Part shown: positions 12,663 through 28,302 of the stretch, piece after piece | How the letters are laid out: the number at the start of each line of letters is the position of its first letter | How positions within the stretch are numbered: position 1 is the stretch's first letter | NCBI RefSeq assembly: GCF_025685415.1 | Contig: NZ_JAGSYB010000001.1 | Span: forward strand, 1,302,001 to 1,366,000 | Direction of reading: 5' to 3' | Length of the DNA: 64,000 nucleotides | Source: Terriglobus aquaticus | GTDB taxonomy: Bacteria > Acidobacteriota > Terriglobia > Terriglobales > Acidobacteriaceae | Made by a program: the position numbers and the translations under genes | The notes under the pieces: generated by a model | The model's input: only the letters and a program-made list of their open reading frames with translations | The model's database searches: none | Told to the model about the DNA's origin: nothing

Positions 12663-12711
12663 TGGTGAGAGCTCTGGGGCTCGAACCCAGGACCAGCGCC
12701 TTAAAAGGGCG
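12663..12711. repeat. Left attachment repeat (attL), 49 bp
   Basis: Exact copy of the 49 bp at 28254-28302, from the CCA end through the TTT anticodon loop of tRNA-Lys read on the minus strand. Beyond it the sequence no longer resembles a tRNA, so this is a fragment left by site-specific integration. Confidence 0.9.
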
Positions 12712-12859
12712 CTTAGGCACTTCAGGACTATGCATCGTCGTGCAGCACAACCCCTCACATGCATGTCCCTAGACACTGCGTATTTACTGAACATTATCGC
12801 TGATGCAGTCTGCATAGCAGCGCATCACCACTTGTACACAAGCAATCGCGCTCAGACGA

Positions 12860-12882
12860 TTTTGTATCCCCGCGTATCCCCG
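12860..12882 (+). promoter_or_regulatory. Candidate integrase arm-type sites
   Basis: TTTTGTATCCCCGC (12860-12873) is followed at once by GTATCCCCG (12874-12882), just upstream of the integrase start. The same 14-mer recurs 62 bp inside the right attachment repeat at 28179-28192. Matching short motifs near both ends are what a lambda-type integrase needs as arm sites; they may also regulate int. Inference from position. Confidence 0.5.
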
Positions 12883-12900
12883 AGCGTATACCATCGCCTC

Positions 12901-14037
12901 ATGGCAAAGCCGAAGGCGAAGGTCGAAGGTGTCTACGAAAAGAACCCAGGAAGCGGCGTCTGGTACACCCGCCTCCGCGTAAACGGCAAGCTGGTTCGCA
13001 AGAGGATTGGCAGCTACAAGGACGCGAAGGAATACATCGAGAAAGCCCGTACCATCCGCAACACAGGCGCTGGGATCATCCCACAGACCGCGAAGCGCCC
13101 TGCCATGACGTTGGGTGAATTGGACAGGGTTGGAGGCTCCGTCACCCTTGGCAAACTCTGTGACGACTGGCTCCGGTACATCAAGGCGCATCCTCTGGAA
13201 TACAAGGATCAACGCAATCCGCCCTATCGGATCGGCCTCATCAAGGAAGCCTTTGGCGACTTGCCGGCCGGGTCGATCCGTCCCCCGCAAATTGCAGACT
13301 GGCTCGACGAGATGGCGAAAGACAGGGCTCCTGCCACCATCAACCGACTCAAGACCACCTGGTCAGCAATCTTTAGGTACGGCAAGGAACGGGGACACGT
13401 CGAGACGAACCCGGCTCGGGATGTGAAGCTGAGAAGAGTTGGCGGCGGTGTCATCCGTTGGCTTAAGCCAGAGGAAGAAGCTCGTCTCAGAGCGGTGCTG
13501 CAGAAGGCAGTAGACGACTGCCCTTCCCAGAAGCCGGGGATCCGTAACCGACTCTTGCACCACATCCTTGAGTTCGACATTTCCATCGGTACGGGGATGC
13601 GCAAGAGTGAGCAGTACGGGCTGCTCTGGTCAGACGTAGACCTGGAACACAAGATGATCACGGCGAGAGACACAAAGAATGGCGAGACACGCCACATCCC
13701 CATGATCAAAAGCGTTCATGCTGCATTCTTGCAGTTGGACGCCATGCGCCTCAAGCGAAAGAACCGCTCTAGCAAAAAGCCGAACCAATCCCCTGCCGAA
13801 TCCGTGTTTGGGCTTGCCGACAACAAAAAGTGGTGGCTGGCAGCACTCAAAGCAGCGAAGATCGAGAACTACCGCTGGCATGACAATAGGCACACGTTCT
13901 GTTCCCGCCTCGCTCAGAAGGGCGCCAGCCTCAAGGTGATCCAGGAGGCAGCCGGACACAAAACGATTCAGATGTCAGCGCGATATGCGCACCTGCACAA
14001 ATCCCACCTTGCAGATGCCATGTCTGTGCTTGATTGA
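12901..14037 (+). CDS. Tyrosine recombinase / phage integrase
   Basis: 378-aa site-specific recombinase that inserts and excises the element at tRNA-Lys. It has a basic N-terminal region (KPKAKVEGVYEKNPGSGVWY, an AP2-like arm-binding fold), a core-binding SAM-like domain (about residues 80-170) and a catalytic domain. Active-site residues visible are Arg234 in GTGMRKSE, His327-x-x-Arg330 in HDNRHTF, the GHKTIQMSARYAH box, and nucleophile Tyr362. The ATG at 12901 is chosen because upstream in-frame codons run through the candidate arm sites. Integrity of all motifs suggests an active enzyme. Confidence 0.95.
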   Translation: MAKPKAKVEGVYEKNPGSGVWYTRLRVNGKLVRKRIGSYKDAKEYIEKARTIRNTGAGIIPQTAKRPAMTLGELDRVGGSVTLGKLCDDWLRYIKAHPLEYKDQRNPPYRIGLIKEAFGDLPAGSIRPPQIADWLDEMAKDRAPATINRLKTTWSAIFRYGKERGHVETNPARDVKLRRVGGGVIRWLKPEEEARLRAVLQKAVDDCPSQKPGIRNRLLHHILEFDISIGTGMRKSEQYGLLWSDVDLEHKMITARDTKNGETRHIPMIKSVHAAFLQLDAMRLKRKNRSSKKPNQSPAESVFGLADNKKWWLAALKAAKIENYRWHDNRHTFCSRLAQKGASLKVIQEAAGHKTIQMSARYAHLHKSHLADAMSVLD

Positions 14038-15122: not shown

Positions 15123-15404
15123 ATGGAAAACAACTTTCTCATAGCTATTTTCCGAATCGCAGAGCAGACAGGGAGCACTGAGCAGAATAAAGCGAAGTAC
15201 ATTGGCCTGGTGCCCAGCGAAAATCCCAACACCTGTCCGATCTACTACTTGAGTGACACGCTTTTCGGCCTGCGCGAGAAGATGACCGAGCGTGTAATCA
15301 AATGGGATGAAGTAGAACGTGCGCTCTCAAAGGGTGGGGAGTTTTACATACCTCGCCCCATGTCGATTTCACAAGGCGCGATAGATAAGCTCAAGGGAGC
15401 TTAA
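15123..15404 (+). CDS. Small hypothetical protein, 93 aa
   Basis: 93 aa. Start ATG 15123 with TAGGAG at the right distance; a longer frame upstream overlaps the previous gene and is rejected. Contains NNFLIAIFRIAEQTGSTEQN, YIGLVPSENPNTCPIYYLSD and a basic end (SISQGAIDKLKGA). No membrane segment or known motif. Likely co-transcribed with the 73-aa gene, with a factor-independent terminator directly downstream. Confidence 0.65.
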   Translation: MENNFLIAIFRIAEQTGSTEQNKAKYIGLVPSENPNTCPIYYLSDTLFGLREKMTERVIKWDEVERALSKGGEFYIPRPMSISQGAIDKLKGA

Positions 15405-15713: not shown

Positions 15714-15800
15714 GGTGGCCGGCCTCCAGATCCGGTATGTCACGGGTGCGTCATCGCTCTCTTTCCTCACAGTTTTCGTGATTGATGGTACGCTGCGCAA

Positions 15801-16070
15801 ATGCTGCAACATCTGCTTACGTTGTCTTCTGCCTCAGCAGGTTTAGCCTCTTGGTTCTCAGTCCTAATCGCAGCGGCGGGACTCTTCTATCAGAACGCAA
15901 GAGCATTGCCTGCGGAAGCAAACTGGCCACGTGCTATGGTCTACATCACCTATTTGACGATGCTAGCGGTGCTGGTCTCTCCAGGTGGCACGTCCATAAA
16001 GAGTACAGCCAACTTCTTAGTGATCACCGGATTTGTGTGGATGTTCTATACCGGATTCGGTCGACGGTGA
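15801..16070 (+). CDS. Small membrane protein, 89 aa
   Basis: 89 aa with about three hydrophobic segments (SAGLASWFSVLIAAAGLFYQ, MVYITYLTMLAVLVS, FLVITGFVWMFYTGFG). No clear ribosome-binding site. Its last 54 bp overlap the 3' end of the convergent membrane-protein gene, so one of the two termini may be altered. Function unknown. Confidence 0.45.
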   Translation: MLQHLLTLSSASAGLASWFSVLIAAAGLFYQNARALPAEANWPRAMVYITYLTMLAVLVSPGGTSIKSTANFLVITGFVWMFYTGFGRR

Positions 16071-17051
16071 ATGCGCTTCTGCTGAAGGTTCAGCTTTGGG
16101 GGTAGCCGGCAGAAAAACGCTCGGCTTTGCTATCGCGAAGTCATAGTGGACTAGTGCGACCGCAGAACGAGGCAAAAATGTGGCCCTTTCTTCTCCCTTT
16201 CCCACAAGGAAGTAGCCCGCATCAGTCTCTGAGAGCAGGAAGCAGGATACTCGCGCGTTCGGGAGTACCGCAGAATCTTTACTGAGGACGATAGTGATCG
16301 GAATGGGCTCCCCGCCGCCCCAAGCGGTTTTTATATGTGGGTAGAAGTACCGTGAAAAGATGAACAGTGCGAGAAGGAATTCCAAAGGAAGGCGTTTCCA
16401 CCTGCCTTCAGGTGTTTGGTGTGTCATCTCATAGAAGACAACGGCTGAAATCCCTGTGATCCACAAGGTCAGGGATGTCGGCGTGAAAACGCCCCGCAGC
16501 ACTAGGCTTTCGCCCGATGTATAGAAGCCGAAGCAGATCAATGAGCTCAGCACAAAAGCGCTCACCTTTCTAAATCTTGCCTTTTCGAAGACAAACAAAT
16601 GAAAGGCGACCACGCTGAATGCTGCTATATACAGAGCAGTCTTCCAGCTAAAGGGACTTGACTTCACTTCGTCGAAATTGAAGACGGCCCAAGAGAAGAA
16701 GTAAAGAAAATTGGACGCGAGAATGATGCCGTAGTACCACCGTAGGAGTGCTTCCCATGGCTGCACCTCCTTCATCTTCTCTCGCGTTCGTACTTTCACT
16801 TCTTTGAGGATCGCGACTGGAATGAAGAGCAGAAACGCGAACCAAAGGCCAGCCGCCAGGATGTGTGGGCGTAATGGATTTCCCTCAGAGAATCCATAGC
16901 GGAAGCTGTGCAGTGATGTGATGAGAAAACCGAAAGCGTAAAGGCCAAAAACACTCGCAGCCAGCAACTTAGAAAGGCTTTCGAGAGACGAACCTGTCAC
17001 TCGACGTGCAAGAGCATCGCTCTGATCATCCGCCTGTACGATCTCACTCAC
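16017..17051 (-). CDS. Multi-pass membrane protein, 344 aa
   Basis: GTG start preceded by GGAGGAGAG. About eight hydrophobic segments between residues 30 and 245 (for example LLAASVFGLYAFGFLITSLH, ILAAGLWFAFLLFIPVAIL, ILASNFLYFFSWAVF, LTLWITGISAVVFYEM, FLLALFIFSRYFY). A soluble C-terminal part has IPITIVLSKDSAVLPNARVS. The tail is rich in Pro, Ser, Glu and His. No catalytic motif is seen. A zinc-ribbon-like gene follows upstream on the same strand. Cargo of the element with unknown role. Confidence 0.7.
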   Translation of the reverse strand: MSEIVQADDQSDALARRVTGSSLESLSKLLAASVFGLYAFGFLITSLHSFRYGFSEGNPLRPHILAAGLWFAFLLFIPVAILKEVKVRTREKMKEVQPWEALLRWYYGIILASNFLYFFSWAVFNFDEVKSSPFSWKTALYIAAFSVVAFHLFVFEKARFRKVSAFVLSSLICFGFYTSGESLVLRGVFTPTSLTLWITGISAVVFYEMTHQTPEGRWKRLPLEFLLALFIFSRYFYPHIKTAWGGGEPIPITIVLSKDSAVLPNARVSCFLLSETDAGYFLVGKGEERATFLPRSAVALVHYDFAIAKPSVFLPATPKAEPSAEAHSPSTESGIEHPHKSGDH

Positions 17052-17073
17052 CGTGCTCTCTCCTCCTTACTGT

Positions 17074-17487
17074 TCACCTCTTCTTATCACTTCGTCGCTT
17101 CCGCAGCCTTTCGTACTGCCCATCGTTCAACCTGAGACACACCATTCCCTTCCTAGAGGAGAACAGCGCGCGCTCTAGCTGGCGCTCCGCGTGCATCGGT
17201 TGGTAGCTAGCATTAACGATCCTGTAGAGCGGTTCCTGAGTCTTGTACCGGCCTGTCCAGGGCAGAGGCGTCATGCCGTCTTTCTCCAGGAAGCCCACAT
17301 GGTAGCTGTCGGTCGCCAGATCGAACGTGAACGCCATGATTACCGTCTTGAGATCCTGCTCCATGCAGCGGAGGCAGAGACGGGCGCCTACTGCCCCATC
17401 ATCTCTTGACGGCAGGATGTTCCTGCATCGGCAGCAGACCTTGCCGGCCTCGATCTGCCGGATTGTGGATGCTCTCGGGCCGCCCAT
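17074..17487 (-). CDS. Zinc-ribbon-like hypothetical protein, 137 aa
   Basis: 137 aa. Near the N-terminus VCCRCRNILPS and LCLRCMEQD form two CxxC pairs that could chelate zinc. The middle part (FTFDLATDSYHVGFLEKDGM) is beta-rich and the C-terminus is basic (RLRKRRSDKKR). It lies 22 bp upstream of the multi-pass membrane protein on the same strand, so the two may be co-transcribed. Possibly a nucleic-acid-binding small protein. Confidence 0.65.
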   Translation of the reverse strand: MGGPRASTIRQIEAGKVCCRCRNILPSRDDGAVGARLCLRCMEQDLKTVIMAFTFDLATDSYHVGFLEKDGMTPLPWTGRYKTQEPLYRIVNASYQPMHAERQLERALFSSRKGMVCLRLNDGQYERLRKRRSDKKR

Positions 17488-17677
17488 GATCGGCAGTATA
17501 GGCGAAGGTTTAGCGAAACCCGTTGGCTGTCCACCGGCTACAGTGGAAAACTAGACAGAAATTTTCCTATTGCACCTGAGCCGGTGCATAAAGCGAATGT
17601 GCAAGGTGTACCTATAGGTTGTGGGTATCGAGAGGCCACCCACGACTTGTGCGGTACGACTATCAGAAGGTGGGAGT

Positions 17678-18616
17678 ATGCGAAGCATTGTTTTGATTCT
17701 TCTTGGTTTGTTCCCTTGGTTTTCTGCATCGGCGCAGGTGCAGCCGCCCAAGAGCGAAGCGGGCTTCAAGCACGCGTTTAGGCGCCACACGGATGGATCC
17801 TTAGAGAAGCGCTTCGACGCCCTCAGCTGTTCGTTGGTCTTGCTCCGGGTTGCCAACCGGCTCGGAACGGGGTTCTTTGTCAGCGCAGACGGTGACGTCG
17901 CAACAGCCGCTCACGTCATGGGAGACAAAATATTCCCCAGGGTTGTAGGTGGTTCCGGAGTCGGCGTGACCTTGATCATTCCGCAGGACTTTAGTGCTCA
18001 GGACGCCAATGGCTCAGTGCATCCGCTGAAAGGAAGCACGTTGCAGAACAACATCGACGCCTTCGGGGCTGATGTCGCGCTCATCAAGACTGGGATCAAG
18101 CCGCCTTGCTGGCTGAAGACGGGGGATGACACCAAGGTGCGAACAGGTGAACCGGTCATCACCATCGGTTTCCCAGGTTTGGCTTTCGGCTCAGCCACTC
18201 TTTACTCCGGCTTGGTGAGTACTGCGCAATTACTGACGGGCCTCCCAATCGGCAAGACACCGGATGGAATGCCCGTCACAAGCCAGGTCAAGACAATCCG
18301 GGTGCAGATGCCGATCTCGCCTGGTCTATCAGGAGCTCCTCTGATAAACAGCAAAAACGAGGTGATCGGAGTGATCACCTCGGCAGGAGCTTGGAATCAG
18401 GATCTGGATGTCGTTATCGCGCTGCGTCGCATGCAGCAGGCTGGGCAGATCCCACCGGGCGTGAACCTACCGAACATACAGGAGTTGGGGTGGATCGCAG
18501 AGCTTGGTGAGATTCTTCACGACTACGCGTCTCCGGGGTATGGAGACGCTGTGCCGATGAGGTATCTGAGGCCATCAGCGGCAGCAACTCAGAAACCTGC
18601 AGCACCCGCCCATTGA
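17678..18616 (+). CDS. Secreted trypsin-like serine protease
   Basis: 312 aa with signal peptide (SIVLILLGLFPWFSASAQ). Chymotrypsin-fold S1C-type protease: His79 in VATAAHVMG, Asp132 in FGADVALIKT and Ser218 in SPGLSGAPLIN form the full triad, and the oxyanion GLSGAP box and the GTGFFVS strand are intact. There is no PDZ domain, so it is shorter than DegP/HtrA. ATG 17678 follows GAAGGTGGGAG. It acts in the periplasm or outside the cell. As element cargo it might serve host-surface modification or competition (inference). Confidence 0.85.
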   Translation: MRSIVLILLGLFPWFSASAQVQPPKSEAGFKHAFRRHTDGSLEKRFDALSCSLVLLRVANRLGTGFFVSADGDVATAAHVMGDKIFPRVVGGSGVGVTLIIPQDFSAQDANGSVHPLKGSTLQNNIDAFGADVALIKTGIKPPCWLKTGDDTKVRTGEPVITIGFPGLAFGSATLYSGLVSTAQLLTGLPIGKTPDGMPVTSQVKTIRVQMPISPGLSGAPLINSKNEVIGVITSAGAWNQDLDVVIALRRMQQAGQIPPGVNLPNIQELGWIAELGEILHDYASPGYGDAVPMRYLRPSAAATQKPAAPAH

Positions 18617-18746
18617 TTGCTACTTCTTTGTTCGTCTGACTGATGGAGATGGTGCTCGCGGTATCCGGATGCTTGCCTTCTTGTTGAGCCGCACAAACGG
18701 CCGAAACGTTCGTCGCGATGGCGAGACATGCAATGACCTTGAACAT
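18414..18746 (-). CDS. Possible small exported protein, antisense overlap
   Basis: 110-codon leftward frame whose start (FKVIACLAIATNVSAVCAAQ) looks like a genuine signal peptide and has TGAGG upstream. The following part (SISQTNKEVAINGRVLQVSE) reads well, but the 3' 203 bp run antisense to the protease gene. Either a short exported protein with an extended tail or a chance frame. Confidence 0.3.
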   Translation of the reverse strand: MFKVIACLAIATNVSAVCAAQQEGKHPDTASTISISQTNKEVAINGRVLQVSELLPLMASDTSSAQRLHTPETRSREESHQALRSTPTPVCSVGSRPVGSAQPAACDAAR

Positions 18747-18906
18747 GGGGGACCTCACAGGAGTTGTGGAACGGTCGGAAGAATTTTCACGACTACGGAG
18801 AAATTTAGTCATAGGGCGAACCTGCGTCAACCCACCTTAGAGGGACGCTCGCGTTCGGCAGCGGGTAGCACGACTCCGTCTATGGGCAGAGATCAGGGTG
18901 AGAGCC

Positions 18907-18931
18907 CGCCCCCTGCTCAACGGAGGGGGCG
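18907..18931 (-). terminator. Hairpin downstream of SGNH gene
   Basis: CGCCCCCT / AGGGGGCG stem with a 9-nt loop, 24 bp past the SGNH hydrolase stop read leftward. No T-tract follows, so it may be factor-dependent or only stabilise the mRNA. Confidence 0.4.
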
Positions 18932-18954
18932 TGTTCCGCCTACTGAAGATCGCT

Positions 18955-20571
18955 CTATTGAATGTCCGCAGCCATAGCCTCGGCAATGTGCATATGGCCG
19001 CAGTCGTTTGGGTGCTGTCCCACGGACCCCGCTGGAACTGCAGGGCAGCTTGTTCCCGAGTAGCCGGGTGCCCCCTCGCCAGCCGGTACCGTGGTCGCCG
19101 AACCACTCATATCGACTGCGTTGTTCATGTAGGCGTTCGTATTGGTGAAGTTCACGAGCAGGCCATCTGCTTGGAGGGAAGAAACCACACTCGACTCCAT
19201 GCCCGCATAGGCATCAGTAGCCGCTGAGATGTTCATTCCGTTCTCGTAGATCGGGGCATAGACGAACAGCGATGCCGGCGAAGCGACGGGAAGAGGCGTT
19301 TTGGCCTGACCCACACCGTAAAGCACGAAGTTGTTGGTCTGCGTCGCCGCGCCTGCAGTCTGCGATCCCGTGCCATTCGGCGAGGTGACCGTAAAGAGTA
19401 AGGTGTGGCTGCCGGCGGCTGACAGGACGTACCGCTTGGCCTGAACCGATACGGTGCTGCCCACCTTGGTGCAGAAGCACTGGCCGGTCTGCGATGCGGT
19501 GTAAAGGGTGTCGACCACTGAACCGTCGACGCTCAAGGTTGCGGTGCCGCCGTCGCCGTCACGTCCCAGGTACCAGACGTAGACCGGCTGGTTCGCTGCC
19601 GTCGTGGTGACTGTCGTGCTGGCCGTGCTGTTTTGCGTCGTGGAGAAGATGCCGCCCGTGCTGTGGTCTGTGTACGTCATCCACGTGCCGGTGGTAGTGA
19701 AGCCGGAACCAGGAACTTTGTTGCCTGTCGGTGTAGTCAGGTAGCTGAAGGTCGCAGTGAGGGCAGACCGAGCATTCGCCAAGCAGCCTGTAGTATTCCC
19801 GCACCAGTGCAGGTCATTATGCAGGGCGAAGTACGTGCGCACGGGGTTTGCGGCACTCGTCGGCTTGTCAGCGAAGGCGTAGGCGAACGCGATGTCCTCT
19901 GACTGATAGCCCGACGCGCCGTTATTCGTGAGGGTCAAACCGAGTTTGGCTGCCAGGATATTCGCGTAGCACGTGGAGTTGCCGGTCGCTCCCGTGCAGG
20001 CGGTGATGGAATCACCGTATGTGGTCAGACCCTTCGCGCCAGAGGACAAACGAGGCCCCATCAGAAAGCGATGCACGCTGTTGAATTGGGCAGGCAACTG
20101 AGCTTCTGCGATCTGGCCCGAGGCGCCTGATCCCGGTGCGCCCTGCGCTGCCAACAGACCCCAATAGGAAGAACCATTGGCCGGAGTGTTGCCGGTGTTT
20201 GCAGACTGCAGCGACACCCAGCTCGAACCGGAGTACGTCACGATGGCGCCATTCGCGTACGTCGTGCTGCCGCTGTACGCACCCTGGTAGCTGAGGCTGG
20301 ACCCGCTGGACTGCGAGGACGAGAGTAAGGCCCAGTAGCTGGAGGTGTTCGAAGGCGCATTGCCCGTGGTGTTCTGCAGGGCATAGTAGGCAGACCCGCT
20401 GCTAACGACGACGTCATTCTTGATGTACGCCGTGCTGGAGTTGTAGTTGCCTTGCATCTTGAGGGATGTGGTGAGATCGCTCAGATAAGCAATCGACTGC
20501 TGAGCCTGCGTATTGGCCAAAGGCGCAAAAAGGCTGACTGCACACAGTGCAGCGTAAAAAAGTTTCTTCAT
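18955..20571 (-). CDS. Secreted SGNH hydrolase with two CBM5/12-like repeats
   Basis: 538 aa with signal peptide (KLFYAALCAVSLFAPLANTQ). Two homologous segments, near residues 42-84 (STAYIKNDVVVSSGSAYYAL) and 102-142 (STTYANGAIVTYSGSSWVSL), each ending in S-SYW-LL, resemble chitin/cellulose-binding CBM5/12 modules. A GDSL-type block I (TTYGDSITACTG, Ser nucleophile) and the late block V Asp/His (HPNDCGHMHIAEA) frame an SGNH esterase domain, with a central Ser/Thr-rich beta region inserted. It lies just after the capsid gene and a strong terminator on the same strand. It could be an acetyl-esterase or lipase acting on polysaccharide, but unlike a tail spike it has a secretion signal. Confidence 0.8.
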   Translation of the reverse strand: MKKLFYAALCAVSLFAPLANTQAQQSIAYLSDLTTSLKMQGNYNSSTAYIKNDVVVSSGSAYYALQNTTGNAPSNTSSYWALLSSSQSSGSSLSYQGAYSGSTTYANGAIVTYSGSSWVSLQSANTGNTPANGSSYWGLLAAQGAPGSGASGQIAEAQLPAQFNSVHRFLMGPRLSSGAKGLTTYGDSITACTGATGNSTCYANILAAKLGLTLTNNGASGYQSEDIAFAYAFADKPTSAANPVRTYFALHNDLHWCGNTTGCLANARSALTATFSYLTTPTGNKVPGSGFTTTGTWMTYTDHSTGGIFSTTQNSTASTTVTTTAANQPVYVWYLGRDGDGGTATLSVDGSVVDTLYTASQTGQCFCTKVGSTVSVQAKRYVLSAAGSHTLLFTVTSPNGTGSQTAGAATQTNNFVLYGVGQAKTPLPVASPASLFVYAPIYENGMNISAATDAYAGMESSVVSSLQADGLLVNFTNTNAYMNNAVDMSGSATTVPAGEGAPGYSGTSCPAVPAGSVGQHPNDCGHMHIAEAMAADIQ

Positions 20572-20589
20572 AGAGATCCTTGTGTTTGG

Positions 20590-20634
20590 GGCAGAAATAA
20601 GAAGAGCGCCCCCACCCGTGTTGAGTGGGGGCGC
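20590..20634 (-). terminator. Terminator after the capsid gene
   Basis: Read leftward, a 10-bp GC-only stem GCGCCCCCAC / GTGGGGGCGC is followed by TCTTCTTATTT. It ends the portal-protease-capsid transcript 15 bp past the capsid stop and separates it from the SGNH gene. Confidence 0.85.
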
Positions 20635-20648
20635 GATTGCTGCCGTGC

Positions 20649-21848
20649 TTAGCTGGCTGCCTGGGTCAGGTACTTGACAGGATGTGTGCCGGCGTCGGTG
20701 ATGAACGAACCGCCGCGTCCCGCACCGACGAAAGCCACGCTGCCCTTAGTAGTGAGATACGTGTACGGGTCGCGGTAGACCGTGAAGTCACCAACCGAGC
20801 GTAAGGTGTACAGGGATTCGAAGTCGCCAAAGACCAAACTGGTCGAGTTGGCTGCGATGTTTGGCAAGAAGTTGTCGAGAACGATGGGCCGACCCAGCAA
20901 AGTGTCGAACGGCCCAGAAGTGGTGCTCGGCTGAAAGAGTGGGCGGCCTATCTGATCGACCACACCCATCAGAGCCGCACGAGTGGTAGTGTTCATCACA
21001 AACGTGCCCCTGTCGGCATACTCCTTGTCGACGGAAGCCCAGAGATTCAAGAGATCCTGGTAAGCAATAACGCCCTTAGCTGCGCTCGTGGCTCCGTTCA
21101 CAGCGCCGCTCAGATAGGAGACGTATGCTCCGACAGCTGAACCAGAGGCAGTGGAGCCCTGAGAAACGTACTTCGCGAGGCCACGATAGAGACGCTGGCC
21201 AAAGATGTCCTGGACAAACTTGTCGATGTCCCAAGCAGAGTCTTCTAACTCCTCCAGAGTCACCGAGATCACGCCCGTCGTGTAAGTTTCAGTCGCTGAA
21301 TAGTTCTTCGCTAGCGAAGGATCAGCTTCAGGCGCAGGGGTCGACTCGGCCCAAGGCTGAATACCAGCAGTAGCGTCATTGCTGCTTGCAAACTGCATAG
21401 AAGCGCCTGTATCGGTCTTCTTCTGATTCACGATATTGACGACACCGCCGTAGAACTTCTGCGCTTGGGTCAAAACCGGATAGAAAGCCGGCGCAACCAG
21501 TTGGTTGCCGCCCGTGATGCTGCCGCCAACAGTGCCCACACCTAGATCACGAAGCTCAGTCTGATCGCCAGTCACCATGAATTTGCGGAATGCTCGCTTT
21601 TCGAGCTCTGCATTTTCACCGTTGTCCATCGAGCGACCGGGGACCCCGCGAGGTGGGCGGTTCGTGCGTTGTTCAGCGGCGAAAGCCTCCACACGCTTGT
21701 GACGAGCGATGTCAGCGTCAAGTTCGTCCACCTGTTGCATCATCTGATCGAAAGCACTGCGCTGCTCAACAGCTTTGTCACCCTGCATGATGGCAGTCGC
21801 ATCGTGCATAAGCTTGTTACGTTTTTCTTGTAGTTCGAGAAGAGTCAT
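20649..21848 (-). CDS. HK97-family major capsid protein
   Basis: 399 aa. The N-terminal about 100 residues form a charged coiled-coil scaffolding/delta region (LLELQEKRNKLMHDATAIMQ, VDELDADIARHKRVEAF) ahead of the mature HK97 fold. The latter is recognised from VGGSITGGNQLVAPAFYPVL, PWAESTPAPEADPSLA, ISVTLEELEDSAWDIDKFVQ, GTFVMNTTTRAALMGV, LLGRPIVLDN and FGDFESLYTLRSVGDFTVYR. ATG 21848 with AAAGGA decides the start. It forms the icosahedral shell and follows portal and protease in the canonical order. Confidence 0.93.
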   Translation of the reverse strand: MTLLELQEKRNKLMHDATAIMQGDKAVEQRSAFDQMMQQVDELDADIARHKRVEAFAAEQRTNRPPRGVPGRSMDNGENAELEKRAFRKFMVTGDQTELRDLGVGTVGGSITGGNQLVAPAFYPVLTQAQKFYGGVVNIVNQKKTDTGASMQFASSNDATAGIQPWAESTPAPEADPSLAKNYSATETYTTGVISVTLEELEDSAWDIDKFVQDIFGQRLYRGLAKYVSQGSTASGSAVGAYVSYLSGAVNGATSAAKGVIAYQDLLNLWASVDKEYADRGTFVMNTTTRAALMGVVDQIGRPLFQPSTTSGPFDTLLGRPIVLDNFLPNIAANSTSLVFGDFESLYTLRSVGDFTVYRDPYTYLTTKGSVAFVGAGRGGSFITDAGTHPVKYLTQAAS

Positions 21849-21913
21849 AGGGATTCCTTTGGCGCCGGCTGGCACCATGTTTCGTGGATCAGTTGTAGGG
21901 GTGGAAGGCCGAG

Positions 21914-22642
21914 CTACTTGCGGCGGGCGAGCTCTAGGCGCATGTGCATCTTGTTGCGGTCAGACCTGCTGATCGAGCGATCTTCGTCATCCTGCTCTGG
22001 GCAGCCGTTAGCTGCACAGGCTACGTCGTCGCATTCCTCATCGGAACAGCGATCACAATCCCCGTCTTCACACGCGGAGCAGTCGCAATCGCATCCGTCT
22101 GCGTTCGAGCGCTTCGTCAGCTTAAGTTTGCCTCTGAGAGCATCAGGGCAGGAGCGGATGGACACAGAAGAGGAACTGTAAGCCTCAAAGATGCACGGCG
22201 ACACTTCGATCAAGTCGGCTTTAAGGATCGTCCGGACGACGCTCCCGTCCTTGTCTACGGCCCAATCATCGGAGATTGTCTGGAAGCCGAAGCTAGTGGC
22301 GTCCAAGTCCCCGCGATCAATTGCAGCGGCGAGAGATCTTGCCTGTTCCGTATCAGGAAGCCTGCAGCTGTAGCGAAGCGCCGTAGGGCTGTCAGTCAGC
22401 GTGAGCGTCTTCGACTTCGTTCTGCCCATGACCAGGTTCGGATCATGTTGTCGTAAGCAGTAGACGTCGGATCCCATCGAGTCAGCGAACACTCCTGGCG
22501 CCAGTAATTCGCGGAAACCGCCAAGATCCTCGCTCAATGAGGAGTAAACGATCGTCCCGCTGATGGTGCGAGAACCATCGGCGCTGGTTTGCACCCGCAG
22601 TTCTCGCGCTGGTTGGTACCGGAGTTCTTTGGTTTTAGGCAT
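21914..22642 (-). CDS. HK97-family prohead protease with Cys-rich tail
   Basis: 242 aa. It cleaves scaffolding/delta regions during capsid maturation. The herpesvirus-assemblin-like fold is seen in ISGTIVYSSLSEDLGGFREL, catalytic His66 in LRQHDPNLVMGRTKS and Ser117 in LDATSFGFQTI. After residue 180 comes an acidic Cys-rich tail (CDCDCSACEDGDCDRC, CDDVACAANGC) with nine or more Cys, possibly metal-binding. Its ATG overlaps the portal stop by 8 bp, indicating coupling. Confidence 0.88.
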   Translation of the reverse strand: MPKTKELRYQPARELRVQTSADGSRTISGTIVYSSLSEDLGGFRELLAPGVFADSMGSDVYCLRQHDPNLVMGRTKSKTLTLTDSPTALRYSCRLPDTEQARSLAAAIDRGDLDATSFGFQTISDDWAVDKDGSVVRTILKADLIEVSPCIFEAYSSSSVSIRSCPDALRGKLKLTKRSNADGCDCDCSACEDGDCDRCSDEECDDVACAANGCPEQDDEDRSISRSDRNKMHMRLELARRK

Positions 22643-23912
22643 CTGGTACCTGTCCTTGTTGAGGTGGCTTTCCCTGCTTCAAGAGCTCCAGAGAGTTCTC
22701 CATGTTGACAGGATTGCTGTAGACGTCCAACTCAGGCCCCGCTTCATGCAGACCTTGTATCCGTCTGCAGTCATTGCCGGTAAGCCAACCACCCTGCCGT
22801 CCAATAGCGCAACCTTGCATCTGTGTAAGGAAGTCACCACGGATGAGTTCTGCAGTGTCAAAGCCAATCTGGAAGACTGCCGCTTGCCCCGGTTTTGGCA
22901 TGAGCAGTTTAAGTGCGATCTCCGCTTCGATCCTTGCTAGTAAGGGGCTGATCGTTTGCGTGATGAACTGCAGGTTCATCTGCTCGGTGTTCGAGTTGGT
23001 CATCTTGCCGAGTTCGCCGATCATATGAGCTGGCACTCGGAAAATTCCCGCCACATCTGCACGAGTGAAGGCACGGGATTCTAGGAATTGCGCCTCTTCA
23101 TTAGTGATGCCGAACCGCTCGGCTTTCAACCCGTTATCCAGGATTGCGATCCGATGTTGGTTACTTCTGGTCTGCAGAGTTTCCCAATCGGTGCGCATCT
23201 TCTGCTTTGTGAGAGGATCAACCTTCTGCTCTGTTGACAAGGCCATCATCGGCACAGCACCATTGCTGAAGAAGCGTGAAGCGTACTGCTCAGCAGCAAT
23301 GCTGAGGCCGAGACTGCGCTTGCATTGGAGGATCGGGCTGAGACCCAAGATCCCGTTCCAGGTCATGAGGCGAAAGTGCAGCATGTCTTCTGCCGCGATT
23401 ACTCGCGACTGGCCTGCCGCCTCACCGTCAGATGTGCGGTAATAAAGTGTGTTGTCCGGCTTACGAGAGGGCTCTGTGAGTTGCGGCTGCAGATTCCACA
23501 GACCTACGGGCTTGCCGCTGCTGTCTCTTTCGATAAACACATAAGCGTTTCCAGTGAGACAGAGGTGTGTGACGAAGGTCTCTATGAGAGTCAGTGAGCT
23601 CTGTTCTTCATTCGGAGCCAAAGTGAGCAACCGACTCAGCGGGTGGGAAGTCTCCGGAGTCCTGCCGCCTGCAGTCACACGGTAAAGACGTAGCGGGAGA
23701 GACGATACTGTCTCGGCAAGCACCTTGACGCATGCAAACACAGTGCTAATCTGCATTGCGCTGCTATTGGAGATGACAGCACCCGCCTCAGTGCCACTGC
23801 CGATCCTGAAAACTTCAAAGGCTCCAGGGTTCATTGCTGGCTCCGTGGTGCTTCTTCGCTCTGACTCAGGCCGCTGAGGTGGAGGCGGCAATCCTAGTGT
23901 TTGAATTCCCAT
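22635..23912 (-). CDS. HK97-family phage portal protein
   Basis: 425 aa; forms the dodecameric DNA entry ring. Typical family segments include TVFACVKVLAETVSSLPLRL, HPLSRLLTLAPN, LCLTGNAYVFIERD, WNGILGLSPI, FTRADVAGIFRVPAHMIGEL and TEQMNLQFITQTISPLLARI. ATG 23912 is chosen for its AAGGA site; an upstream frame extends to 23960. The next gene (protease) overlaps it. No terminase gene precedes it, which is unusual because terL-portal-protease-capsid is the normal order. Confidence 0.92.
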   Translation of the reverse strand: MGIQTLGLPPPPQRPESERRSTTEPAMNPGAFEVFRIGSGTEAGAVISNSSAMQISTVFACVKVLAETVSSLPLRLYRVTAGGRTPETSHPLSRLLTLAPNEEQSSLTLIETFVTHLCLTGNAYVFIERDSSGKPVGLWNLQPQLTEPSRKPDNTLYYRTSDGEAAGQSRVIAAEDMLHFRLMTWNGILGLSPILQCKRSLGLSIAAEQYASRFFSNGAVPMMALSTEQKVDPLTKQKMRTDWETLQTRSNQHRIAILDNGLKAERFGITNEEAQFLESRAFTRADVAGIFRVPAHMIGELGKMTNSNTEQMNLQFITQTISPLLARIEAEIALKLLMPKPGQAAVFQIGFDTAELIRGDFLTQMQGCAIGRQGGWLTGNDCRRIQGLHEAGPELDVYSNPVNMENSLELLKQGKPPQQGQVPDA

Positions 23913-24049
23913 GTATTTCCTTACAGAAACGGCAGAAATAGATCGCTTTCTGCGCATCAATTAGCTATTTTTTAGGAGTCGATTGAGGGAGCAGAATCAA
24001 CGCTCAACGTCTCGAAATCCGCACATTGCTCAGCAACGTGAACACTCGC

Positions 24050-24060
24050 GCACAGTGTGC
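24050..24060. promoter_or_regulatory. Palindrome GCACAGTGTGC, candidate operator 1
   Basis: Near-perfect 11-bp dyad, 138 bp upstream of the portal start in a 264-bp intergenic region. Two more copies, one inverted and one with a single mismatch, lie upstream of the first small gene of the block (25512 and 25583). The regulator is unknown. Confidence 0.45.
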
Positions 24061-24176
24061 AGGGAGTTCAGAGGCGAGTTAGCGCGAAAATTGAAGTGTG
24101 GGCAAAAATGTTGCATGGGCGTACCGGTCGCAGTCGGTCGACCTTCCAGGTGCAAATGACCCCATACCCCATCGGG

Positions 24177-24455
24177 TCAGCCCCTAAGCCCAGCCGGATT
24201 TAGCAGTGTGTAACGTGGGAGCCGGTTCGTCTGCCTGTAGTCGATCAGTTCATGAGCGATCAGTTCTGTTCGAACATCGCTGATCTCGTGGAGCTTGCAT
24301 CCAGCTAACGTTGCTGCTGCTACGTCGCTCAGGTGGATCCATCTCCAGTCCCGTCGCAGAAGGCACACAGCGACGTTGCGGAGCAATCGGACAGCAGGCT
24401 GACTGAGACAGTCCAGGATGTCCTGTGGTGCGAGATCCTGATCGTTAACCCACAT
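24177..24455 (-). CDS. Small paralogous helical protein A, 92 aa
   Basis: 92 aa, third in translation order of three tandem related proteins. Shared core: LSQPAVRLLRNVAVCLLRRD, WIHLSDVAAATLAGC, then a helix and LPRYTLLNP. The pattern (helix, W-hydrophobic-SD, helix-turn-helix, terminal beta hairpin) resembles a small winged-helix domain. It lies directly upstream of the operator/portal region. Role unknown, possibly DNA-binding or packaging-related. Confidence 0.65.
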   Translation of the reverse strand: MWVNDQDLAPQDILDCLSQPAVRLLRNVAVCLLRRDWRWIHLSDVAAATLAGCKLHEISDVRTELIAHELIDYRQTNRLPRYTLLNPAGLRG

Positions 24456-24467
24456 CGGTGCTGTCCT

Positions 24468-24770
24468 CTAGCGCCGTCTTCTGAGGGGCTGTGGCACAAG
24501 CTGGAACTTGAGATAAGAACCGCTGTCTGTCACGATCACGAGGGTACTCGCGTGCAATTCGTTCACCATCGCTTCGACTTCATCCAGTGGACAATCTGCG
24601 GTCAGAGCAGTGTCATGAACGCTCAGCTTCATCCAGTCGCGATTTTTGGCGAGGGCGCGAGCGCGCAGGCGAATCAGGCAAACCCGAGCAGCAGCACTGA
24701 GCCGCATCAAGGCGTCCCTGTCGTAGCGGTATTGCTCGTGATGTGGTGCGAGCGTCTTCTGCTCTAGCAC
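24468..24770 (-). CDS. Small paralogous helical protein B, 100 aa
   Basis: 100 aa with a GTG start overlapping the stop of the preceding gene by a few bases. Core LSAAARVCLIRLRARALAKN, WMKLSVHDTALTADCPL, VNELHASTLVIVTDSGSYLK, FQLVPQPL lines up throughout with protein C. It ends in a basic tail (LRRRR). Duplication of a single ancestral gene is clear from the matched spacing of the W-hydrophobic-S and LVPQ motifs. Confidence 0.65.
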   Translation of the reverse strand: MLEQKTLAPHHEQYRYDRDALMRLSAAARVCLIRLRARALAKNRDWMKLSVHDTALTADCPLDEVEAMVNELHASTLVIVTDSGSYLKFQLVPQPLRRRR

Positions 24771-25033
24771 TGTGGCACCAGGCTGTAACGATGACGATTG
24801 CCGTCAAGGCTGTGCGTGATCAGGTTCTTGCTCTTGAGTTCTGCCACTAGGCGAACTACATCCCCTAGTGTGCATTCAGCACAGCGGGCGATGTAAAGGT
24901 CGCTGAAGTGCATCCAGCTCTGCTTGCGTCGTAAAGCACCGTTGCGTAGCCGGATTAGGAACTTGCGTGCTTCATCGCTTAGGTTCGCGATCACTTCTGT
25001 TCGGTAGTGGAACTGACTTGCTTCTGTCGTCAT
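24764..25033 (-). CDS. Small paralogous helical protein C, 89 aa
   Basis: 89 aa. ATG 25033 with AAGGA; the longer upstream frame overlaps the previous gene. Core LSDEARKFLIRLRNGALRRK, WMHFSDLYIARCAECTL, VAELKSKNLITHSLDG and YSLVPQ match protein B closely. First of the three tandem paralogues. A predicted winged-helix fold with its terminal hairpin is inference. Confidence 0.65.
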   Translation of the reverse strand: MTTEASQFHYRTEVIANLSDEARKFLIRLRNGALRRKQSWMHFSDLYIARCAECTLGDVVRLVAELKSKNLITHSLDGNRHRYSLVPQC

Positions 25034-25058
25034 GTCTATCCTTCGTGTGTTGGTGGTA

Positions 25059-25475
25059 CTAGACGTTTTGCGTGAGGCTGTCTGCGACTTGCCGCCGCAT
25101 TCTGCCCAGTACTTGAGGGTTGTCACTCTTGCGGAGTTCACGCTCGAATACCGCAATAGCAGTGGCGAAGATTCTTGCTAGGGTCTGTACCGGGTTCTGA
25201 GGAGTATCGAACTTCCGCCATCCAGCGAGTTCACTCGCGTGCGCAGTGACGAGTTCTTCCAACAGGAACCCCGCGAGGCTTTGTGCAATGCGAAAGTTGT
25301 GTTGCTGAGCTTCTGTCGCCACATCGTTCAGGCTCAGTGCCTTGAGCATCTGATCGACCACATATTCAACTTCGAACCAGTCACCGCCGAGGCGTTCTGC
25401 CTCTTGCTTGCCGGCTTCAATGAATTCGAGTAGAAGGCGATACCCCTCTGCGTTCTTAGGCTGTTGCTGGGGCAT
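25059..25475 (-). CDS. Hypothetical helical protein, 138 aa
   Basis: 138 aa, all-helical and acidic. ATG 25475 has GGAGGG upstream, decisive against the longer frame. Segments GYRLLLEFIEAGKQEAERLG, VEYVVDQMLKALSLNDVA and QTLARIFATAIAVFERELRK. It is the first gene after the long noncoding stretch and starts the block that runs to the capsid gene. Two copies of the GCACACTGTGC-type palindrome lie 37 and 108 bp upstream. No family recognised; a small-terminase-like or packaging role cannot be shown. Confidence 0.65.
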   Translation of the reverse strand: MPQQQPKNAEGYRLLLEFIEAGKQEAERLGGDWFEVEYVVDQMLKALSLNDVATEAQQHNFRIAQSLAGFLLEELVTAHASELAGWRKFDTPQNPVQTLARIFATAIAVFERELRKSDNPQVLGRMRRQVADSLTQNV

Positions 25476-25511
25476 GTCGCCCTCCGATCTTGGGAATGTT
25501 TGGTGACTGTT

Positions 25512-25522
25512 GCACACTGTGC
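25512..25522. promoter_or_regulatory. Palindrome GCACACTGTGC, candidate operator 2
   Basis: Reverse complement of the copy at 24050, 37 bp upstream of the 138-aa gene, a suitable place for an operator overlapping its promoter. Confidence 0.45.
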
Positions 25523-25582
25523 GACGTATGACGGGCGAAACTCAAGGAACAGCTGATATCTGCCTACGGCGTTCTGCCCTAC

Positions 25583-25593
25583 GCGCAGTGTGC
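25583..25593. promoter_or_regulatory. GCGCAGTGTGC, candidate operator 3
   Basis: One mismatch to the copy at 24050 and 71 bp from operator 2 (about seven helical turns), so co-operative binding is possible. Confidence 0.35.
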
Positions 25594-25662
25594 GAATTTC
25601 GCTAGAGTTTCCTCGCGCGCGGGCGCGTTGCAAACAATCCTGTTACCAGCAAGGAACAAGCT

Positions 25663-25685
25663 TGTTTACTCACTCTGTTTACTCA
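25663..25685 (+). repeat. Direct repeat TGTTTACTCA x2
   Basis: Two identical 10-mers 13 bp apart (25663-25672 and 25676-25685). A related inverted half (TGAGTACA) lies near 25714. This might be an iteron-like or regulator-binding array in the noncoding region. Confidence 0.4.
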
Positions 25686-25769
25686 GAAAGAGAACCTCTT
25701 CGTTGTTCCCTGAATGAGTACACGGAGAGTGTTTCTCAAAGACTGAGGCAGAAAGAGCAGCAAAATTGA

Positions 25770-26140
25770 ATGTAAAGAGGGGTTGGGGTGTCTCGGTGAC
25801 ACAAGACTCTTTACATCACGTCTTTGTCACCGGCCAGGGCTGATCCATTCACTAGACCCGCTATTTAGCGTTGCGAGGTCTACCCCTCACGACGTGGATC
25901 AATCTTGGCAAGACTGGGGTTCGCCGGGAACTTGTCGCGTTACCATACCGCGACGGCCTACACCGTCTCATAGCCGCACACTATGCAGCCGACCAGGTTT
26001 GACGCTGGGATAGTCAACCGTAACGACTCGCTCCCCACAGGCTTCATCTAGCAAGGGAACGGGTTATGAGAGAGAAGAACGGTTGCACTCGTATCGAGTG
26101 GCTAACCTGCTTCAGGCAGGGAGAGTGAAAAACACCTCAT
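25770..26140. ncRNA. Hairpin-rich noncoding region, candidate structured RNA
   Basis: No gene is seen in the 25476-26183 gap, but dense inverted repeats are. ATGTAAAGAG/CTCTTTACAT (25770-25779/25807-25816) overlaps CGGTGACA-C-AAGAC/GTCTT-TGTCACCG (25794-25807/25820-25832), so the two stems exclude each other. Nested stems TGATCCA/TGGATCA, TAGACC/GGTCTA and CGCTA/TAGCG follow at about 25842-25906. Later come GACGG/CCGTC, GGTTGCACTCG with CGAGTGGCTAACC, and CCTGC/GCAGG near 26107-26121. The density suggests a folded transcript or a cis-acting region. The strand and any known RNA family are not determined. Confidence 0.4.
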
Positions 26141-26183
26141 ACATATATGCGAGTCGAGAAATGGCAAAAGGTGACATCGCAAT

Positions 26184-26222
26184 GAAAAAAAGCTGTGGGG
26201 CAGCAGCTTTTCTGCCCCACGG
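26184..26222 (-). terminator. Terminator of the sigma-like gene
   Basis: Read leftward, GTGGGGCAG / CTGCCCCAC with an 8-nt loop followed by AGC and seven Ts. It directly follows the sigma-like protein stop. Confidence 0.88.
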
Positions 26223-26224
26223 CA

Positions 26225-27502
26225 TTACTTCTGGTGCTCTTTGGCTCTATTCTTCAGTCGGCTGACACGCTGTTTTAGCGCATCACTTGAGATCCCCAAC
26301 ACTGTGGCGACTTCGGGGTAGGAGTACCCTTCCTTGAGCAGTTCGACGATAACGCGATCATCCCCTTGCACCCAATCTGGAATTTCCGGGCTGATGTCCC
26401 AAAACTGCTGTGTCGGGTAGATGAGGGGATTGTCGTCGACCGATCCGTCCTCACTCATCAGAAACAGATCCAACGAGCTCCGCGACCGCTTCTCCGATGC
26501 CAGATCTTTGGTTCGCTTGCGTTCGGCTTGGACCGCTTCCCTGATGTCTTTCTCACTGACGGTGCCGAGGTTCGGACACTCTAGGAAGAGCGCGATAGTG
26601 CTCTCCTGTGCGATGTCGTCATGCGCAATTGCAGTCTCCCTCTTGTCTGAAAGCATCAGGCCGCGAGCGGTTCGAGTTGCGAAGCCAAGTATGGCAGCCT
26701 GCAAAGTGCCTTCAAGAGCTTTGCGCTCCTCTACAGAGGCAGTCCGATACTGCTCCTGCAATTCCGCAAGGCGCGTCTCTTTCCGCTTACGGTCTGCTCC
26801 AAGGTTAGGGACCAGAGGGGCATAGTCCGTTCGACCAGTGGCAGCAAGATAGGCGAGACAATCCCTCTTCAAAGAGGCAGCGAAGGCTTTGCCGGTCCTA
26901 CGAAATGAAAGGGCAGGAGGATCCGCCAAAAGGTAGTCCTCTGCAGCTTCTTCGTTGACATGCTGCAGAAGGAAGGCGCGCGCATTGTCTTCCAGGTCTT
27001 CTGCTTCGATCTGGTCGCTCTTGAACGCATCGAATGCAGCTGCAATCTCGCTCTGCCTGATCTTCGCCGGCTTCCAGCAATCACCAGTCCTCCTATCCCT
27101 GGCGAGTTCATGGGTGCAGCTTTTCGCCGTGTTGATGTGGATTTGCTCAGGATCCAGCGAGTAGCCATTCTCTGACGCGAAGGAGGCAGCAGAAGCGTAG
27201 CTCCGCATGGCCGCGAGATCGTAGATCTTGCCGCACTTCCAGCACCCGGTAAACCGTACCTGCTCTTTCGGCTGCGGAACATCGACATAGCTCTGGTGAC
27301 CACCACAGCGGGCGTAGTCCTCCGAACTCGGGTAGACGTCATTACGGATGCGGTCATAGATGTTGCCAGTGACGGCATCACGGATGACGTATGGCGCTTC
27401 GCCGGCCAGCTTGGCAGCCTGTAAGTCGACGAAAGGACCAATGGCCTCCGGCTGGGTAAAGAGTTCCTCAGACAGGGGCAGAGGGGCAGCAGTCGTCACC
27501 AT
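26225..27502 (-). CDS. Sigma-70-like regulator with Cys-rich N-terminal half
   Basis: 425 aa. The C-terminal region (VELLKEGYSYPEVATVLGIS then SDALKQRVSRLKNRAKE) is a sigma region-4/LuxR-type helix-turn-helix. A sigma region-2-like stretch (FATRTARGLMLS, AHDDIAQESTIALFLE) lies about residues 270-320. The N-terminal 130 residues have FTGCWKCGKIYDLAAM and SCTHELARDRRTGDCWK, four Cys that may bind zinc. ATG 27502 overlaps the excisionase-like stop as TAATG. Probably a transcription activator switching on element genes; this domain combination is unfamiliar to me. Confidence 0.65.
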   Translation of the reverse strand: MVTTAAPLPLSEELFTQPEAIGPFVDLQAAKLAGEAPYVIRDAVTGNIYDRIRNDVYPSSEDYARCGGHQSYVDVPQPKEQVRFTGCWKCGKIYDLAAMRSYASAASFASENGYSLDPEQIHINTAKSCTHELARDRRTGDCWKPAKIRQSEIAAAFDAFKSDQIEAEDLEDNARAFLLQHVNEEAAEDYLLADPPALSFRRTGKAFAASLKRDCLAYLAATGRTDYAPLVPNLGADRKRKETRLAELQEQYRTASVEERKALEGTLQAAILGFATRTARGLMLSDKRETAIAHDDIAQESTIALFLECPNLGTVSEKDIREAVQAERKRTKDLASEKRSRSSLDLFLMSEDGSVDDNPLIYPTQQFWDISPEIPDWVQGDDRVIVELLKEGYSYPEVATVLGISSDALKQRVSRLKNRAKEHQK

Positions 27503-27747
27503 TAGACTGCTACCCCTGAGAGAGTCGGCAGATCGTCTGTGCCGTAGGCGAAGCTCGTCAGTTCCGCGTGTGTGATCAGCACCTTCTTGCCAAGACGACG
27601 GAACGCGAGCTTCTTCTCAGCGAGCAAGTAGTCGATGCTCCGAAGTGACAAAGACAAGGCGAAAGCTGCAGCGCGGCGATCATAGAGCATTTTCTGCAGG
27701 GACAACTGGGGCGTTGCCGCCTTTGAGGCGGTTGCGTTGTGAGACAA
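27502..27747 (-). CDS. Excisionase-like MerR-type HTH protein, 81 aa
   Basis: 81 aa. RRAAAFALSLSLRSIDYLLA, then LAFRRLGKKVLITHAELTSF, is the HTH_17/excisionase pattern (winged helix with R-LG-K-x-hydrophobic after the recognition helix). TTG start with AAAGG upstream. It is coupled to the sigma-like gene by a one-base overlap and lies 506 bp from the right attachment repeat. Likely recombination directionality factor, or a transcriptional regulator of the same fold. Confidence 0.7.
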   Translation of the reverse strand: MSHNATASKAATPQLSLQKMLYDRRAAAFALSLSLRSIDYLLAEKKLAFRRLGKKVLITHAELTSFAYGTDDLPTLSGVAV

Positions 27748-28253: not shown

Positions 28254-28302
28254 TGGTGAGAGCTCTGGGGCTCGAACCCAGGACCAGCGCCTTAAAAGGG
28301 CG
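28254..28302. repeat. Right attachment repeat (attR), 49 bp
   Basis: The 3' part of tRNA-Lys from the anticodon stem to CCA, identical to 12663-12711. The intact gene lies on this side, so the recombination restored the tRNA. Confidence 0.9.

Follow-up and report, generated by a model that had tools for sequence, protein, structure and literature searches.

We analysed a window of 64,000 nucleotides from Terriglobus aquaticus (contig NZ_JAGSYB010000001.1, positions 1,302,001 to 1,366,000 of the forward strand). It contains one complete mobile island of 15,640 bp at window positions 12663-28302, with a G+C content of 55.7% as compared to 62.2% in the surrounding DNA. The island encodes an integrase and the three proteins of a phage prohead, and carries a site resembling the cohesive-end (cos) sites of related prophages just upstream of its portal gene. 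An earlier sequence-only reading had pointed to the head genes; the attachment-site (att) repeats and the cos-like site (24084-24172) are features beyond its list. The features that carry the argument are as follows.

12663..12711, no strand: att repeat, distal copy, 49 bp, identical to the 3′ part of tRNA-Lys
28254..28302, no strand: att repeat, second copy, corresponding to the 3′ part of tRNA-Lys(TTT), whose gene lies at 28254-28329 on the minus strand
12730..14037, plus strand: tyrosine integrase, inside the distal end (PF00589, E 8.5e-23; phrog_1, E 2e-62)
20649..21878, minus strand: HK97-fold major capsid protein (PF05065, E 6e-32; the sole PF05065 match in the host genome)
21914..22642, minus strand: prohead protease, S78 (PF04586, E 1e-32)
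22635..23960, minus strand: portal protein (PF04860, E 6e-100)
24084..24172, minus strand: cos-like packaging site (core GGGGTATGGGGTC at 24158-24170; GACCG at 24125-24129)

The Pfam matches agree with the sequence-only reading that portal, prohead protease and major capsid genes are intact and in order. That reading had also claimed that terminase, head-tail connector, tail and lysis genes are absent. Indeed, Pfam and PHROGs scans of the predicted open reading frames (ORFs) of the island gave no terminase, connector, tail or lysis gene. The gene order conserved among 13 related prophage loci (15 loci for TerL) also served to build profiles for TerS, TerL, portal, protease, capsid, adaptor, head closure, neck, major tail protein, tape measure and others. 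Functions were named by position and size, in part with the help of PHROGs. Against the 326 island ORFs of at least 30 aa, the only genes that these profiles recovered were integrase, portal, protease and capsid (E 6e-98 to 4e-188). The best E value was 0.41 for TerL, 0.11 to 0.31 for the TerS profiles, 0.28, 0.5 and 0.64 for adaptor, head closure and neck, and at least 0.11 for the tail profiles. As a control, the same profiles recovered TerL, TerS and portal in distant, unused loci (L290 to L293, L296; L and G numbers are our handles for loci and genomes). The absence of these genes was thus upheld, including by the terminase profile search that had been proposed as a check. Some weak PHROGs matches were observed: the helix-turn-helix (HTH) region of a sigma-like protein matched one TerS family (E 0.009) and one HNH family (E 0.025), a 130-aa ORF matched a head family (E 0.03), and the repeats of the protein at 18955-20571 matched tail-fibre families (E 4e-14) and also a portal family (E 2e-4).

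A cos-like site upstream of the portal gene

K-mers common to the regions upstream of terS yielded GGGGTATGGGG. The site spans about 110 bp and consists of a core GGGG(TAT/ATA)GGGG, GACCG about 41 nt further on, an A/T block and then a block resembling GCAATTCAAA. In five of the eight core-defining loci the core lies 89 to 108 bp from terS, and in the other three the distance is 0.6 to 2.3 kb. In the window, the site stands in a gap of 216 bp that separates the portal gene from the last small gene, where the G-rich core, GACCG (at offset 41) and the A/T block can be read directly in the sequence just upstream of the head genes. The window core is identical to those of L043, L047 and L239. This 13-bp sequence occurs once in the 4.16-Mb genome, in the island, with no occurrence of the reversed control. 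By composition, 0.27 occurrences are expected per genome, and 7e-6 for the 216-bp gap and strand; therefore the placement of the core weighs more than its uniqueness.

A 26-bp weight matrix missed the window site through its rigid flank, and gave way to a matrix of the 13-bp core and to profile hidden Markov models. Over 14 TerL-less islands (the window and relatives described below), the core matrix gave a Fisher P of 4e-5, with p < 0.05 in four: the window (0.0015), L150, L033 and L153. Six of the 14 (L036, L039, L049, L146, L147, L150) belonged to the k-mer discovery set, and the window was outside it. In IMG/VR, AGGGGTATGGGGTC was found near packaging genes at 11 of 118 sites as compared to 1 of 82 for a control pattern (P 0.03), the 11 being partly redundant (L373 has the L043 site again, and L328 is like L397).

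Four profiles of the full site were used: cp (nine phage sites), cp2 and cp3 (re-aligned, 23 sites) and cp6 (six prophages of the family). With cp, 8 of the 14 islands, window included, had their island-wide best match on the sense strand and no more than 320 bp upstream of terS or portal (0.22 expected, P 7e-12; the 320-bp limit was set after the matches were seen, and at 700 or 1100 bp P was <= 3e-6 with the four profiles). The best match was in place in 9 and 8 islands with the two re-aligned profiles and in 6 with cp6 (P 3e-8). In the window, the cos-like site was the best match across the 15.6 kb with all four profiles. Its scores with cp, cp2, cp3 and cp6 were 16.1, 3.9, 11.1 and 4.2 bits, the top background scores in 224 kb of chromosome being 1.5, 4.6, 3.2 and 6.8 bits, respectively.

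Phage HK97 is a full tailed phage with the same protease and capsid families as the island. It also shares the portal family. In the HK97 record, GACCGCCGCCAAA immediately precedes the ends, and terS begins at base 50; we take these ends to be the physical cohesive ends. Once joined, they were the best match with three of the four profiles (14.2, 13.0 and 7.8 bits), which places a cos region some 100 bp upstream of terS. In contrast to the island, terS and terL stand between cos and portal in HK97, which is named a cos phage (PMC10359639, available to us in part, as were the other papers cited below). Judged by its likeness to the HK97 ends, the window site may be an HK97-type cos and would be cleaved to cohesive ends.

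When the host genome was searched with a 110-position model built on 10 phage sites, two matches were obtained at E <= 10. One was the island site (E 0.14). The stronger (E 8e-9) is followed 3.9 and 4.5 kb on by a terS-like ORF and a TerL fragment. This locus (L269, G000:C1:2,194,674-2,199,472), with its strong cos-like site, is apparently a decayed prophage and possibly a former helper of the island.

Related islands and possible sources of a motor

A capsid search gave matches in 35 of the 397 genomes of the order, and the surroundings (up to 20 kb) were examined in 30 of them, leaving out G025, G209, G126, G091 and G370. In seven, the capsid gene belongs to a tRNA-bounded island of 14.3 to 16.5 kb with portal, protease and capsid and without TerL (the window, L033, L035, L036, L039, L048, L049). 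Thirteen are ordinary in arrangement, TerL being accompanied by connectors or tail (the L058 stretch stops in the adaptor). In two, TerS-TerL-portal-protease-capsid is present and a tail module is missing: L041, bounded and 13.7 kb long, and L038, which has an adaptor and a neck-like gene in addition and for which borders were not found. L051 lacks TerL, yet has an adaptor and a tape measure. The remainder comprises two truncated contigs (L034, L046) and five stretches with a capsid gene and no portal (L037, L055, L059, L061, L062). Two of the latter are even smaller capsid islands, with capsid and integrase and no portal match: L061, and L062, bounded at 1696-11587 by a 49-bp tRNA-Cys repeat.

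Islands of the same gene order, which had been suggested as something to look for, are thus present in six more genomes of the family. The preference of the sequence-only reading for a satellite over a prophage is also well supported by the exact tRNA borders, the lack of terminase and tail genes and the similar-sized relatives at other tRNA genes. No island lying inside a longer prophage was encountered: in the related prophages examined, terS-terL precede the homologous module and connectors and tail follow it.

With portal and capsid queries, 193 loci were fetched from genome contigs and IMG/VR. A portal was found in 189 of these; TerL was present in 169 of the 189 and absent from 20, only 6 of which have more than 3 kb upstream. 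IMG/VR partial contigs without TerL before the portal include L146, L147, L149, L150 and L153 (3.0 to 7.5 kb upstream), and L145 and L229 with a short upstream side (1.7 and 1.0 kb). Half of the 14 TerL-less islands keep terS (L036, L039, L049, L146, L147, L150, L229). The terS products of L036, L039 and L049 align with prophage TerS (hhalign 99.7%), that of L039 also matching phrog_83 (E 2e-8). A major-tail-protein gene stands between TerS and portal in L036 (8155-8601) and L150 (6851-7297, on a partial contig), where no further tail profile matched. Some other arrangements were seen. L289 (G037, same genus) has TerS-TerL-portal-protease-adaptor and a cos-like site (E 2e-5) with no capsid match in 20 kb, the converse of the island. 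In L294 and L295, from a different family of the phylum (G579), protease and portal are present with no TerL or capsid match; L294 has an integrase too and, upstream, a cos-like site (E 0.0005).

Trees were built from the window, 22 family stretches and 31 loci chosen among the 193. The portal set excluded L153 and L246 (short portal ORFs). The careful portal tree also excluded L145 and L148 (upstream side short or absent), and L229 was kept with its 1.0 kb. In this tree, the 12 TerL-less islands form one group (ultrafast bootstrap, UFBoot, 75; Shimodaira-Hasegawa-like approximate likelihood ratio test, SH-aLRT, 90; recovered in 72% of the bootstrap trees); within it, eight islands including the window form a subgroup supported 100/100. 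A quick portal tree grouped 14 islands (SH-aLRT 95). In the capsid tree the islands are not one group (4 changes), so that capsid genes have probably been exchanged among these elements. The ratio of nonsynonymous to synonymous substitution rates (dN/dS) was 0.05 to 0.125, with dS 0.9 to 1.9, in seven comparisons (portal, protease and capsid for L039/L145 and L147/L149; capsid only for L146/L147). Of three comparisons with the window, two were saturated and the capsid against L033 (dS 2.1) gave 0.19. The head genes of related islands are under purifying selection. The portal tree gives moderate support to a lineage of islands rather than to repeated decay.

These results bear on the possibility that the island is a decaying remnant of an HK97-like prophage, having lost terminase, connectors, tail and lysis genes with the cos-like site left over. 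The portal-protease-capsid order and the cos-like site do match those of related prophages, and these genomes also contain further prophages that are plainly damaged (L055, L059 and, at 2.199 Mb, the TerL fragment). However, seven exactly bounded islands of similar size, at different tRNA genes or in different species, are without the same genes. Their portals group together, and dN/dS between related islands is low. Moreover, the att repeat is identical over 49 bp, and the core agrees with that of three prophages at 13 of 13 bases though the nearest portal found is only 53% identical. We therefore hold such decay to be unlikely.

As for a motor encoded elsewhere in the chromosome, the host genome contains a fragment of the HK97-type TerL family at 2.199 Mb and a distant TerL at 3.01 Mb. 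Full-length TerL of the HK97-type family was found in 3 of 14 host genomes searched, in two of them within tail-less islands (L038, L041). The distant TerL (phrog_2) belongs to a locus (G000:C1:3,003,489-3,015,778; L267, L053, L268) that also has a portal (PF04860) and a head-tail adaptor (phrog_442). L272 and L273 are similar, and a 323-aa protein of the locus is 85% identical in G034, another genus. By its gene content, this locus looks like a gene transfer agent or a domesticated phage of Acidobacteriaceae.

This locus, with its TerL and portal at 3.00-3.02 Mb, might fill the island's proheads instead of an infecting phage. Its TerL is present in all seven hosts of the bounded TerL-less islands, in G221 (truncated island) and in 219 of the 397 genomes of the order, and no full-length TerL of the HK97 type was found in the host. 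However, among good genomes of the order this TerL is common anyway (169 of 268), hence its presence in eight of eight hosts says little. It is also of a distant type with a portal of its own, and the cos-like site of the island resembles the site of the other terminase family. We regard this source of the motor as highly improbable. A link between the islands and this TerL, suggestive at first, faded with a better profile.

Accessory genes of the island

The other features of the island are as follows.

24177..24455, minus strand: first of three small tandem paralogues (all three look winged-helix-like by eye)
24468..24770, minus strand: small protein 2 of 3 tandem paralogues
24764..25033, minus strand: small protein 3 of 3 tandem paralogues
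25059..25475, minus strand: 138-aa protein, at the position of a conserved island family (weak similarity); predicted all-helical with low confidence (predicted local distance difference test, pLDDT, 50)
26225..27502, minus strand: sigma-70-like / HTH regulator (PF08281, E 3.4e-5, below cut-off)
27502..27747, minus strand: excisionase-like HTH protein (PF12728, E 0.03, below cut-off), clustering with genes of L036, L038, L039 and L049
14057..14734, minus strand: 225-aa protein, cargo region, function unassigned
15123..15404, plus strand: 93-aa protein, cargo region, function unassigned
16017..17051, minus strand: 344-aa ORF, cargo region, membrane-protein-like by eye
17074..17487, minus strand: 137-aa protein, function unassigned
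17678..18616, plus strand: trypsin-like protease (PF13365, E 1.6e-17; PADLOC RT-Protease_XI, E 5e-14; both scored from a 17621 start)
18955..20571, minus strand: SGNH/GDSL-hydrolase-like protein with tail-fibre-like repeats (phrog_5073, E 4e-14; PF13472, E 4e-4, below cut-off)

The three tandem paralogues (24177-25156) align with small proteins of L033, L035 and L041 (hhalign 93.8%), and s92, s100 and s130 align with proteins that L041 carries in addition to a TerS. A hidden TerS was sought among the small genes (24177-25475) by profile alignment and none was found; the 138-aa protein gave no firm match by the same method. The excisionase-like and sigma-like genes stand beside the tRNA gene, with the integrase at the opposite end. 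The sequence-only reading had proposed a sigma-like activator. A match does exist, but at 23.8 bits it falls below the Pfam cut-off of 25.7, so that the label is tentative. The AlphaFold model of this protein is poor (pLDDT 45). A homologue 30% identical is found in L035; among the 397 genomes the protein occurs in only 2 others, and in no viral contig searched. About 700 bp at 25520-26200 are without a called gene. The minus strand of this region folds better than shuffled sequences (z -3.0, 20 shuffles), with no Rfam match at the gathering threshold, and repeats in the gap around 25520-26220 gave no clear origin.

The SGNH/GDSL-hydrolase-like gene adjoins the capsid gene, and a homologue is likewise beside the capsid gene in L034. 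The trypsin-like protein has an N-terminus resembling a signal peptide by eye. From the 17621 start it matched the PADLOC models RT-Protease_XI and PDC-M35A and is a possible defence cargo. This resemblance bears on a further possibility, namely that the capsid genes act in interference or defence (through decoy heads, or portals or proteases poisoning phage assembly) and not in transfer. Single morphogenesis genes kept in some islands (a neck-like gene in L033, major tail protein in L036 and L150) could likewise act as dominant-negative parts. However, a full portal-protease-capsid set together with a cos-like site, an integrase and exact borders exceeds what interference would need, and we consider this very unlikely.

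Comparison with known satellites and proposed mechanism

Taken together, the island is likely to be an integrated satellite that makes its own prohead, carries cos in cis and would borrow terminase, tail and lysis functions from a helper phage. In the mechanism proposed here, infection of the host by an HK97-like cos phage would induce the island, which would excise and replicate. The helper's TerS and TerL would recognise and cut the island's cos-type site, which would occupy the place where terS-terL would otherwise stand. The helper motor would then dock on the island portal and package the DNA into an island-sized head, fit for islands of 14-16.5 kb, and the helper's connectors and tail would finish a particle able to transfer the island. 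Islands that keep terS could steer the helper's TerL to their own site. From the alignment to the HK97 ends, this reading predicts packaged DNA ends near 24110-24130.

Several observations weigh against the borrowing of a helper motor at this site. The 320-bp limit was chosen after the fact, and the window site clears the background with cp and cp3 and falls below it with cp2 and cp6. Since the six-prophage profile puts the window below its top background, our estimate of the satellite reading was slightly lowered and that of a prophage remnant slightly raised. No site was in place with any profile in L039, L048, L049 and L146. That of L153 was in place only with cp2, at 0.7 bits, and was not credited, and L149 has a strong site 1035 bp upstream. 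The cp profile misses the joined ends of HK97. In IMG/VR, the window's longer core GATGGGGTATGGGGTC was near packaging genes in 0 of 10 contigs. Finally, no replication gene was recognised in the island by the Pfam and PHROGs scans, and in the host genome only the fragment of the HK97-type TerL was found, so that no resident helper of that type is known.

The satellite reading can be compared with known systems. Capsid-forming phage-inducible chromosomal islands (cf-PICIs) carry an HNH endonuclease and both the small and the large terminase in addition to head-tail connectors (PMC10690885). Like them, the island is integrated, has an integrase with a site-specific att, encodes its own capsid, protease and portal and is without tail genes, which suggests dependence on a helper's tail. 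In contrast, the connectors, TerS, TerL and HNH endonuclease of cf-PICIs were not found in the island by the searches above, the weak matches in the HTH region of the sigma-like protein apart. Because terminase and connectors were looked for and are absent, we did not file the island as a cf-PICI. The ordered terminase, connectors and tail of an ordinary HK97-like prophage are likewise absent.

In P4 and cos-type PICIs, a cos in cis is recognised by the helper's terminase (PMC10690885), which is the mechanism proposed for the island. These elements use helper capsid proteins, P4-like satellites remodelling the helper capsid, whereas the island encodes its own capsid and portal. By analogy, the island probably packages its DNA as P4 does and obtains its tail as a cf-PICI does. 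Among satellites of Streptomyces phages, Mulch and Flayer also have their own encapsidation genes, but encode small and large terminase, absent from the island, and have direct terminal repeats (PMC10690885). According to the available part of that paper, satellites that make capsids (cf-PICIs, Mulch, Flayer) bring their own terminase, and those that borrow a terminase (P4, cos-PICIs) use the helper's head.

The nearest published precedent seen for the missing motor genes is in Mycobacterium, where islands with integrase and capsid (and protease) occur, some at tRNA genes and only some with terminase (PMC10654092, PMC3986857). These candidate PICIs and phiRv-type elements resemble the island in having integrase and capsid, but their hosts are unrelated, and the available parts of the papers describe no cos-portal arrangement or helper-terminase dependence. 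To the sequence-only reading, the combination with a sigma-like activator and secreted enzymes had looked undescribed in Acidobacteriota. Given Mycobacterium, terminase-less capsid islands are not wholly unprecedented, whereas for Acidobacteriota the literature searched describes none. That literature, which included few subscription papers and was seen partly in excerpt, contained no terminase-less capsid-forming satellite with cos and no satellite of Acidobacteriota. New here is a cos-like site upstream of the portal in a capsid island without terminase.

For the family as a whole, we lean towards a lineage of motor-borrowing satellites with their own head, portal, cos and often terS, in which the TerL of an infecting phage would fill a foreign head; they would be the reverse of classical head-stealing satellites. 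As part of the same reading, which we find fairly plausible on balance, loss of terL with cos and sometimes terS kept would be the mark of such a lineage in Acidobacteriaceae. The cos-like site would then be a DNA landmark for such satellites where no terminase gene marks them. Such Acidobacteriota elements may have been counted as prophages; strain KBS 89, with two capsids, two portals and no TerL, is listed with three active prophages (PMC5900883, Table 1, available in part). If this reading is true, a carrier of head and cos with a borrowed motor fills the step between terminase-carrying capsid satellites and head-borrowing ones, and the interface between portal and motor works across elements in nature.

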